Source: a virus
DNA: 20,666 nt
Direction: 5' to 3' (one strand)
Virus record (IMG/VR): IMGVR_UViG_3300044630_004622
Location: 1-20,666 of that record
Positions within the stretch are counted from its first letter, which is position 1. Every line of letters starts with the position of its first letter. Position numbers and translations under genes: made by a program. Under the pieces are notes generated by a model that was not told where the DNA came from, made no database searches, and saw nothing but the letters and a program-made list of their open reading frames with translations. Below are positions 4,905-14,187 of this stretch, one piece after another.

Positions 4905-5874
4905 TTAACTTATTTTGCCAGTAGTCTGACGATTTGAACCATTCATAGTATCTACGGAAACCTTCTTCCACAGTCACAGTGGGCGTGTAACCCAGTTCAC
5001 GAACGGCACATTCAATACTTAATCTACCACGGCTGGGGAAGTCGGCATCCTTGCCGCGTATTTCTATACTACCCTTACCTGCTATGCCAATGGCTATTTC
5101 TGCAGCATCTTTCAGCGTATAAAGGCGTGTATCACTGCGTGTAATGTTGTAAATCTTGTTGTTGGCGGCTGGTTTTGTCGCAGCCAGTACTATACCCTGT
5201 GCAGTATCTTCTACATAGGTAAAATCCAATACTTCGCTGGCACCATTTATTTTAAGAACATTGCCGCGCATAGCACCCAGCATAAACTTACTAACCACAC
5301 GATCCTCGACATCCCACTCGCCATATACTGCACTAGGACGAATAATAACATGATCAAAAGCACCACGTCTAGTGTAGTCTTCAACAAGTTTTTCTCCCAT
5401 GTATTTCATAATACCATAGTGTCCAATGGGACGGCATGGTGATGCCTCAACCACATCGTTATCAAAATCACCATACACCATGCTGCTACTGATATAGACA
5501 AACTTGGGTATGTTGTTTTGTTTGGTCAATTCCAATAGGTTAATCAGTGCAGGACACATCACTTCGCCACCCCAGACTGGATTTTGTCCTACAACCTTCT
5601 GTCTGGGAAAACTGGCCAGATGTATAACTCCATCCACTTGTCCAGCTTTTTCAAATGCTGCACGAACAGCAGTGTATTCTCTGATGTCAATCTCGTGTAC
5701 CGTTGCATCGAATCTTTTCTGACGTTCCACAGCCAGGTATTCTAATTCTGGTTTGGGAACAAACCCATAGTTGGTCAGACAGTCAATCACAAAACATTCA
5801 TGACCCAGCTGTTCCAACTGATGTACCACATTATGCCCGATGAAGCCGGCACCGCCTGTTACAATATATTTCAT
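4897..5874 (-). CDS. NAD-dependent epimerase/dehydratase (extended SDR)
   Basis: The 325-residue protein is a full-length extended short-chain dehydrogenase acting on nucleotide sugars. It opens with the Rossmann motif T-G-G-A-G-F-I-G at 6-13, has a cofactor Asp at the end of the second strand (about D31), and an I-S-S-S-M-V-Y-G stretch at 128-135. The catalytic Y-x-x-x-K is Y153/K157, and R-P-S-A-V-Y-G-E at 179-186 is the usual substrate-domain border. Candidate reactions are C4 epimerisation or 4,6-dehydration of a UDP- or dTDP-sugar; the sequence alone does not decide between them. The ATG overlaps the thyA stop by 4 bases (ATGA), and the gene is followed by the aminotransferase, which suggests joint synthesis of an amino sugar for phage or host surface glycans. 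Confidence 0.93.
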   Translation of the reverse strand: MKYIVTGGAGFIGHNVVHQLEQLGHECFVIDCLTNYGFVPKPELEYLAVERQKRFDATVHEIDIREYTAVRAAFEKAGQVDGVIHLASFPRQKVVGQNPVWGGEVMCPALINLLELTKQNNIPKFVYISSSMVYGDFDNDVVEASPCRPIGHYGIMKYMGEKLVEDYTRRGAFDHVIIRPSAVYGEWDVEDRVVSKFMLGAMRGNVLKINGASEVLDFTYVEDTAQGIVLAATKPAANNKIYNITRSDTRLYTLKDAAEIAIGIAGKGSIEIRGKDADFPSRGRLSIECAVRELGYTPTVTVEEGFRRYYEWFKSSDYWQNKLNG

Positions 5875-12524: not shown

Positions 12525-12803
12525 TTACATGCTCCAGTAAGTTTCGGATGCAGGGTTGCAACACCAGGGTGTGTCACGATCAATTTCCACATCCTTACCG
12601 GTCATTAGATTTTTAACAGACTTCATGGTTGGGTGGAATTCAATGCGATGTTGGTTAGCTGGCAGGATGTTATACAGCCCAGCAACCAAATTCTTCATAT
12701 CAGCTTCAGTCTGATCAGTAAACACTCGTGTCATTACAGCACGTTCACCTGACTTGGTGCGGCGGTCTTTTTTGTAGACATACAGGGTGTAATTTTGGGA
12801 CAT
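12525..12803 (-). CDS. Small phage protein of unknown function (92 aa)
   Basis: The open frame reaches 12842, but that region contains the promoter P3 -10 box. The ATG at 12803, with GGAG 6 bases upstream (GGAGCGAA), is the supported start. The product begins with a strand-like Y-T-L-Y-V-Y-K-K-D-R-R-T-K-S-G-E-R and ends with C-C-N-P-A-S-E-T-Y-W-S-M. No domain is recognised. It leads a short operon with the 47- and 37-residue genes. Its ribosome binding site is complementary over 8 bases to the loop motif of the putative RNA at 13421-13538. Confidence 0.8.
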   Translation of the reverse strand: MSQNYTLYVYKKDRRTKSGERAVMTRVFTDQTEADMKNLVAGLYNILPANQHRIEFHPTMKSVKNLMTGKDVEIDRDTPWCCNPASETYWSM

Positions 12804-12833
12804 TTTTCGCTCCGTTTTGTTTACTGTATCAAC

Positions 12834-12892: not shown

Positions 12893-13366
12893 CTATTTTG
12901 CTTGGAAATTCCACAAATCACAACCCATTTTACGGAATTTTTCAATAAAAGACTCTTCGTCAACGCTGACTATGCACATCTGCTCGTCATTGACGGTCAT
13001 AGTGGGGCTGGGACGAGCCCAAAGCATGATACTATGATCCGGATTGGACAACCATTCTGTGATTCGAGTGGCGTTATTTTCACCAGTTTTGCCATTGGCA
13101 CCACTAAATCCGCCTTTATGCTGACTAAAACGACCTTTAAGTGTCTTGCCAGCTTTACCCACATAGGCCACATCAACTACACCAGTCTGATTGCATTTGA
13201 CCCACAGATATACCAGCCCAGTTACCTTGGCACGAGTACCTTTTCGTACCCAATCTTCAGTCAAGGCAAATTTAGGAAGATCAGTGCTTCCTGGAATTAT
13301 CAATTGACCAGCAGGAATAAATCCATATTTGTTGATGGCAGCATTGATATTTGATGTGTGTGACAT
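12893..13366 (-). CDS. GIY-YIG-type nuclease-like protein (157 aa)
   Basis: The central region carries the two strands of the GIY-YIG fold: G-L-V-Y-L-W at 50-55 and A-Y-V-G-K-A-G at 67-73, followed by L-K-G-R-F-S-Q-H with Arg79 and His83 in the expected helix positions. A late Glu in D-E-E-S-F-I-E-K-F (about 136-144) could be the metal ligand. Such proteins are DNA nucleases in homing, repair or phage defence against other phages. Here there is no intron or second DNA-binding domain, so a free-standing role is likely, but the substrate is unknown. Start ATG is preceded by GAGGT, and promoter P4 lies upstream. The first 45 residues are not recognised. Confidence 0.8.
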   Translation of the reverse strand: MSHTSNINAAINKYGFIPAGQLIIPGSTDLPKFALTEDWVRKGTRAKVTGLVYLWVKCNQTGVVDVAYVGKAGKTLKGRFSQHKGGFSGANGKTGENNATRITEWLSNPDHSIMLWARPSPTMTVNDEQMCIVSVDEESFIEKFRKMGCDLWNFQAK

Positions 13367-13391: not shown

Positions 13392-13420
13392 AGTATAGCA
13401 TTAAATGAATTAATGGTCAA
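13392..13420 (-). promoter_or_regulatory. Sigma70-type promoter P4 for the GIY-YIG gene
   Basis: TTGACC at 13415-13420 and TATACT at 13392-13397 are 17 bases apart. The spacer carries AATTC at positions 4-8 and TTAAT at 11-15. A near-perfect palindrome ATACTG-N-CAGTAT at 13384-13396 overlaps the -10 box. Confidence 0.8.
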
Positions 13421-13538
13421 GGTGAAGCCCCTACAGGGAGCGAATCCATAGGGGCTTCGGATTTGCAGACTTTCGGGAGCGAATCTACTTGTCTGCGACA
13501 TACAGTATCAGAACATACTGTCCCAATACTTACAACTC
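13421..13538 (-). ncRNA. Putative structured RNA with three hairpins and a repeated loop motif
   Basis: The 214-base gap between the GIY-YIG and 75-residue genes has no good coding frame. A near-consensus promoter (P6) points leftward into it. Downstream come hairpin 1 (13502-13521, 7 pairs, 6-base loop), hairpin 2 (13465-13496, GCAGAC with GTCTGC) and hairpin 3 (13424-13458, 10 pairs, 15-base loop). Hairpins 2 and 3 carry the same 11 bases, GATTCGCTCCC, at 13475-13485 and 13436-13446. No T-run follows hairpin 3, so the RNA may be a small RNA with a processed end or the long leader of the GIY-YIG mRNA. It is not a tRNA. The shown ends are estimates. Confidence 0.55.
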
Positions 13539-13544
13539 TTCACT

Positions 13545-13573
13545 AGTATATAGCGGTTAGTGTACGCTGTCAA
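13545..13573 (-). promoter_or_regulatory. Near-consensus sigma70 promoter P6 for the putative RNA
   Basis: TTGACA at 13568-13573 and TATACT at 13545-13550 are spaced by 17 bases. The spacer lacks the AATTC/TTAAT signature of the other promoters. No coding start with a ribosome binding site follows within 150 bases. Confidence 0.75.
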
Positions 13574-13580
13574 AACATTT

Positions 13581-13808
13581 TTAACCATATTGCAATCTGA
13601 ACCAAGTGGCCACAGCCGCGTCTTGAAAAGTAAATGCGGTATACCGCTCTTGTATTATATTGTATGGTGGATTTTCATTGGTAATCCTTCTATGAAATTC
13701 CCAGGTAAAATCCACATTCCGCATGATACCAAACCGGTCCTCTAGATCGTAGACTATGTCCAGAATCCTACCCGGTGAGATATTTTCCAGACACACAGTT
13801 ACCCCCAT
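13581..13808 (-). CDS. Small F-x-F...L-W family protein (75 aa)
   Basis: The ATG lies 10 bases inside the end of the upstream gene without a clear Shine-Dalgarno; a GTG four codons later has a G-run at good spacing and is an alternative start. The C-terminal Y-T-A-F-T-F-Q-D-A-A-V-A-T-W-F-R-L-Q-Y-G matches the tail of the two genes before it. The middle is longer and more divergent (D-L-E-D-R-F-G). It is the most divergent copy of this set. Function unknown. No terminator is seen behind it; promoter P6 starts within 10 bases. Confidence 0.7.
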   Translation of the reverse strand: MGVTVCLENISPGRILDIVYDLEDRFGIMRNVDFTWEFHRRITNENPPYNIIQERYTAFTFQDAAVATWFRLQYG

Positions 13809-13984
13809 TTTAATAGGAACAACATTTTGGACTGCTCATCGGAAAAATTAAATCTGCCCCCACCTGAATAATTCCAGACTAGGGAATTGTTGCCAAATGT
13901 CTGACTACACCAATCATAATAATCACTCCATCTGACTCCGTGCAGTCCATTATTGGGCACTGTCACTTGATACCACTGCTTCAT
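13799..13984 (-). CDS. Small F-x-F...L-K-W family protein (61 aa)
   Basis: A GTG at 13990 would add two residues, but the ATG at 13984 has GAGG at the right distance and shares ATGA with the previous stop. The product has W-Y-Q-V-T-V-P at the start, a D-W-C-S-Q-T-F-G segment in the middle, and ends with R-F-N-F-S-D-E-Q-S-K-M-L-F-L-L-K-W-G. This is nearly the same plan as its upstream neighbour, so the two arose by duplication. Likely a small beta-alpha-beta protein; function unknown. Confidence 0.75.
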   Translation of the reverse strand: MKQWYQVTVPNNGLHGVRWSDYYDWCSQTFGNNSLVWNYSGGGRFNFSDEQSKMLFLLKWG

Positions 13985-14187
13985 TTCCACCTCAATAAGA
14001 ATACTGTAAGGTCTTGTTCGTCCTGAAACTCAAATACACCCTCACTTATATAACTCCAGCGAAACCAACTGTGTCCGAAGTTTTCCTTACACCATTCAAT
14101 ACAAGGGCTCCAGCCACGATACCCGTCTGTCTCTGTAGACGCTGGTGCCATTATACAGGCAACAAACCGACCATGCCAGTTCTTCAT
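13981..14187 (-). CDS. Small F-x-F...L-R-W family protein (68 aa)
   Basis: The start overlaps the stop of the wall hydrolase gene by 4 bases (ATGA). The product has an I-E-W-C-K-E-N-F-G-H segment and ends with V-F-E-F-Q-D-E-Q-D-L-T-V-F-L-L-R-W-K. It is co-transcribed with the wall hydrolase and the two following copies. An accessory role in lysis would be guilt by association only. Confidence 0.75.
   Translation of the reverse strand: MKNWHGRFVACIMAPASTETDGYRGWSPCIEWCKENFGHSWFRWSYISEGVFEFQDEQDLTVFLLRWK

Follow-up and report, generated by a model that had tools for sequence, protein, structure and literature searches.

Hairpins with one common loop in an uncultivated phage predict an antisense RNA that reads an extended ribosome-binding site

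The window analysed here is the whole 20,666-base record of an uncultivated virus, which is a phage by its gene content. On its minus strand, a 75-aa ORF is followed in order by a promoter (P1), three hairpins, a second promoter (P2) and a 157-aa ORF, and both ORFs are encoded on the minus strand. The features of the locus are as follows.

13545..13573, minus strand: promoter P1, TTGACA, 17-nt spacer, TATACT, 11 of 12 consensus positions matched
13504..13530, minus strand: hairpin 1, from the predicted fold, without the GATTCGCTCCC loop, limits approximate
13465..13496, minus strand: hairpin 2, outer stem GCAGAC/GTCTGC, inner AGTA/GAAA, loop GATTCGCTCCC at 13475-13485
13424..13458, minus strand: hairpin 3, 13-bp stem, loop GATTCGCTCCC at 13436-13446
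13392..13420, minus strand: promoter P2, TTGACC, 17 nt, TATACT, directly after hairpin 3 and just before the 157-aa ORF
12893..13366, minus strand: 157-aa ORF, downstream, with a weak resemblance to GIY-YIG that stays below the cut-off (19.1 bits, cut-off 22.6, E 0.0016)

The near-consensus promoter and three hairpins that the first-pass annotation had read in this gap are borne out on the minus strand, where the three-hairpin region has a fold z-score of -3.9 and none of 200 shuffles folds equally well. Its claim that hairpins 2 and 3 have one common 11-base loop also holds: GATTCGCTCCC occurs exactly twice in the window, both times as a hairpin loop, while 0.17 copies are expected in a shuffled window (one mismatch allowed). 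P1 has an equivalent at the matching position in the contigs L016 and L051, and L051 encodes a homologue of the 157-aa ORF (72% identical). The plus strand has the same fold score and the strand is not decidable by folding alone, so the element's RNA is taken as read from the minus strand because the promoters, the minus-strand genes, and the T-runs and loop orientation in relatives agree. We looked for a T-run after hairpin 3 in the window sequence and found none, which rules out an intrinsic terminator for the window hairpins; hairpin 3 being without a U-run, read-through of the transcript into P2 and the 157-aa ORF is therefore possible. Besides, the counterpart of hairpin 1 in L051 (about 5816-5870) contains ACCTCCTTTA, which repeats the general anti-SD of 16S rRNA; GTGCTG and CAGCAC on either side of it could form a stem. 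At 13799-14187 of the window (minus strand), a 68-aa ORF weakly matches the adjoining 63-aa ORF (37% identity), suggesting a duplication.

We scanned IMG/VR for two loop copies 14-44 nt apart, and it turned out that 48 further viral contigs carry such pairs, against about 0.2 expected if a mean contig of 20 kb is assumed. Two kinds of gene stand ahead of the loop copies: some contigs encode a small HTH_39 protein there, others an AAA ATPase (phrog_1250, resembling T4 nrdC.10). The exception is L016, whose locus resembles that of the window. In most relatives, the hairpins directly follow the AAA or HTH gene. Relatives were also gathered by protein, via the AAA and HTH neighbours and blind to the loop. 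Here the loop lies right behind the stop codon at 22 of the 80 AAA loci and at about 46 of the 80 HTH loci, and other sequence is found there in the remainder. In many relatives, the last hairpin is followed by a T-run and doubles as an intrinsic terminator. Parts of the window element recur in several contigs, such as the AGTA-loop-GAAAG module of hairpin 2 (also in L012, L016, L031 and L051), hairpin 3 (homologous to the last hairpin of L017) and modules in common with the HTH-associated arrays of L012, L017 and L031. L051, which was found via the 157-aa protein, carries the loop variants GAATCGCTCCC and GAGTCGCTTCC. In isolated phages, the best AAA matches stay below 60% identity, and the annotated regions of four isolates were used for gene order only. 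A blastn search with 1.3 kb around the window locus gave no match in the phage collection.

An origin from bacterial chromosomes was rejected, as the 44 genome contigs with the pattern look like REP-like repeats, coding repeats or isolated matches rather than the phage array. For example, L053, L056, L062, L074 and L088 (Natronospirales, Thalassolituus, Oleibacter) contain chromosomal repeats GCGAAT...GATTCGCTCCCACAG, probably REP-like, in which the 11-mer is apparently coincidental.

One subclass was analysed by its first hairpins, of which 22 are distinct. Of the named pairs, 98% form in them, and changes on both sides are seen in 54 cells, a number reached by none of 500 shuffles. All seven outer pairs show such two-sided changes; the loop, the closing pair and the adjoining bases are fixed. 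The invariance of the loop in this set arises partly by selection, and the loop is also kept in the relatives found via neighbouring proteins. Next to it, the inner AGTA/GAAA and CCAA/GGYAA modules are conserved. Judged by this covariation, the element is a structured RNA with a constrained loop. The first-pass annotation had proposed that a sequence kept in relatives only where a peptide is encoded would speak against such an RNA, and in the contexts examined the hairpins turned out to lie between genes.

The loop is the exact reverse complement of an extended ribosome-binding site (RBS), GGAGCGAA. Where the loop sequence recurs outside the hairpins of these phages, it is nearly always an RBS when read on the opposite strand. 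The pattern GGAGCGAA-N0-7-ATG occurs 7-18 times per record in 13 hairpin-bearing records, compared with 0-1 times for the reversed-pattern control. These sites precede small genes, mostly clustered by the hairpins; many records have them on the same strand as the hairpins and no more than about 10 kb upstream. The regulon genes scanned encode mostly small unannotated proteins, and several AAA genes carry GGAGCGAA themselves. With plain ORF calls as start codons, GGAG followed by CGAA is found at 120 of 402 candidate ATGs (35 of 144 and 85 of 258) in hairpin-bearing phages and at 0 of 447 in relatives without hairpins. Some of the complementarity is trivial, since GGAG would pair with every anti-SD loop, and it is the extensions CGAA and GCA that carry the argument. 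At least five such RBSs are present in 13 of 18 loop-bearing records and in none of 23 loop-less ones (Fisher p 5e-7, phylogeny not corrected), and two of the five loop-bearing exceptions (G028 and G031) are truncated a short way upstream of the hairpins. In the two phages listed, a -10-like box lies within 70 nt of most regulon genes, and separate transcripts and action in trans are therefore plausible. Predicted pairing between loop and RBS is strongly supported by these comparisons. They also favour the base-pairing option in the earlier suggestion that unrelated stems with one loop point to a functional loop, because the loop complements an extended RBS enriched in the same phages. Helix 24 of 16S rRNA (GGGAGCRAA) was considered as a possible alternative pairing partner and is less economical than the RBS match. 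A T-loop mimic was ruled out by eye, as the A at position 58 is missing.

Related phages show other pairs of loop and RBS. The sister group (G039, G041, G042, G043, G046 and G074) has the repeated RBS GAGGGCA or AAGGGCA, 3-13 each, and its hairpins, behind the same AAA gene, have loops TGCCCT(C/T) and no type-1 loops. For example, the loop ATTGCCCTC faces the RBS GAGGGCAAT. Cognate duplexes of loop and RBS have energies of -14 to -16 kcal/mol, against about -5 for swapped ones. Loop and RBS appear to co-evolve across lineages, and their joint change in the sister lineage agrees with the base-pairing reading of the loop. A third type of loop and RBS may exist in G073, where the RBS is GGAGCA(A) and one hairpin has the loop CCTTGCTCCGG.

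Some records fit imperfectly. The two nearest relatives of the window locus (fragments of 67.8 and 46.3 kb) have the hairpins and no GGAGCGAA-ATG. The RBSs of G020 and G029 are mostly GGAGCGT, GGAGCGC or GGAGCA. A poorer fit is seen in G032, whose loop GTCGCTCCC stands against GGAGCA(A/C). In G040 (L458, L477), about ten genes by the AAA gene have a uniform RBS, given as CGGAGAAAC and ACGGAGAAAC; a hairpin loop complementary to it was sought in the regions read and not found. Several further repeats were seen in these relatives. In L173, a possible hairpin downstream of the AAA gene has the loop GCTCCTCTCTCCTCTCTCCTCC, with several anti-SD-like repeats in one loop. Besides, CCCAGTGAGAGA-like 7-mers stand upstream of about 10-14 ATGs in G020 (L490, L491) and G029 (L492) as a second repeated leader motif, and TGTACCTTG-like 8-mers occur 30-50 times in 110 kb of G032 (L276-L281) as a dispersed repeat.

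Within the window, one gene is predicted as a clear target.

12806..12813, minus strand: predicted target RBS GGAGCGAA, 2 nt before the ATG, 8 bp with the loop at -14.2 kcal/mol
12525..12803, minus strand: 92-aa ORF (MSQNYTLYVYKK...), predicted target gene, with homologues in other phages

This ORF lies downstream of the 157-aa ORF and 0.6 kb downstream of the hairpins, and its start context, GGAGCGAAAAATG, pairs better with the loop than any other of the window's 341 candidate starts. GGAGCGAA also precedes the homologues of this ORF in G016, G017, G025 and G033. The orthologues in the two nearest relatives of the window have GGAGCAG and GGAGTTC instead.

We consider it probable that the element is a phage antisense RNA, likely acting in trans, whose loops occlude the RBSs of a phage regulon; both transcription and repression are inferred. 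The phage would encode an antisense RNA, derived in most relatives from a 3' UTR, that displays two or three copies of the 9-nt loop AUUCGCUCC, on stems unrelated to one another. By pairing with the extended RBS GGAGCGAA(U) in front of small phage genes, each loop would block 30S binding, so that the gene set would be silenced together. Pairing with the 16S tail does not account for CGAA, so this extension would be the address that marks the regulon, and related phages would use other addresses (GAGGGCA with loop TGCCCTC). The presumed timing is a shut-off, probably of early genes. Binding in the cell, and repression rather than activation, are likewise presumed, and pairing in cis on the AAA transcript may occur besides the action in trans. 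More broadly, we lean slightly towards an undescribed class of phage RNA control, in which a lineage-specific extended RBS serves as an address and hairpin arrays have loops that read it, giving an orthogonal and evolvable switch for group shut-off.

The position of the hairpins directly behind the AAA or HTH gene in most relatives would also suit control in cis only, in which hairpins at the transcript end pair with the RBS of their own transcript, and several AAA genes do have GGAGCGAA. The S. aureus icaR gene is controlled in this way by an anti-SD motif in its 3' UTR (PMC3868564). We regard this as unlikely, however, since the RBS is common to tens of separate genes, most with their own promoter-like box in the two phages examined, and since the window RNA has its own promoter and a target downstream of a different one. 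Rather less credible is that the hairpins are protein-binding sites for termination, antitermination or end protection and that the RBS match is a by-product of a CTCC-rich loop. The T-run terminator formed by the last hairpin in many relatives and the conserved inner modules beside the loop would agree with it, but it leaves unexplained both the CGAA extension (120/402 vs 0/447) and the joint switch of loop and RBS in the GAGGGCA lineage.

That GGAGCGAA/TTCGCTCC is a double-stranded DNA site of a phage DNA-binding protein seems highly improbable: the 8-mer does occur in both orientations near the same gene cluster, but its orientation to the ATG is fixed, and on the gene strand the hairpin copies read as its complement. 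In addition, a DNA site would have no need of stems that covary. The window RNA could also be an inter-phage weapon, directed for the most part against rivals with the GGAGCGAA address and taken over from these same phages. The near-consensus promoter of its own, the weakly GIY-YIG-like neighbour, the module homology to arrays of other phages and the few self-targets in three contigs of the window lineage would be in keeping with this. We think it quite doubtful, as the window has one excellent self-target, the contigs are fragments whose regulon may lie outside, and the reading would presuppose shared hosts.

If the antisense reading is true, the element would be an RNA counterpart of T4 RegA, and many phage genes would be controlled as a group via one loop sequence. 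The co-evolution of loop and RBS would provide ready-made orthogonal pairs of repressor and RBS, dozens of unannotated small phage genes would gain a common regulatory context, and translation control in these phages would become testable with simple reporters.

T4 RegA is a phage-encoded protein that represses many early genes at their translation starts. The group repression predicted here would be alike, and the difference is that RegA is a protein while an RNA regulator is proposed here. P22 sar is a dedicated antisense RNA against one gene; like the RNA proposed here, it is a phage antisense RNA at a translation start, but many targets are predicted per loop here. Its family (RF00262) scored 22.1 bits, below the gathering score of 43, and the element is not placed in it. 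The Rfam search gave no family at gathering score, with sar and sR084 matches far below threshold, the tRNA/tmRNA search gave none, and the literature search for the loop motif returned only apparently unrelated papers. In S. aureus, RNAs with a UCCCC motif (RNAIII, RsaE) and the icaR 3' UTR pair a C-rich anti-SD motif with the SD and block initiation, and for the icaR motif, which lies in the 3' UTR, there is proof by compensatory mutations (PMC3868564). These RNAs differ in that they act on host genes through the general SD and lack an array of identical loops to which a regulon is matched.

The earlier remark that no phage RNA of such a design is known agrees with the Rfam and literature searches, and a bacterial precedent exists in alpha-r14/NfeR1 (PMC10746234). 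The alphaproteobacterial alpha-r14/NfeR1 RNAs and the CcsR "cuckoo" sRNAs combine highly different stems with a single ultraconserved anti-SD loop; NfeR1 uses redundant loops to silence mRNAs at their translation starts, and the CcsR RNAs share a transcript with a small gene upstream (PMC10746234, PMC10253847). The phage element resembles alpha-r14/NfeR1 in repeating one ultraconserved loop on several hairpins whose stems diverge. The loop of alpha-r14, however, is CCUCCUCCC, the complement of the general SD, whereas the phage loop AUUCGCUCC matches a dedicated extended RBS. Unlike alpha-r14, the element lies on phage contigs rather than being an alphaproteobacterial chromosomal gene, its loop and RBS change together, and its predicted targets are in the same phage. 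In conclusion, the phage element is predicted to work like alpha-r14/NfeR1 but is no member of that family, having another loop, a dedicated and co-evolving RBS and a phage-borne location.
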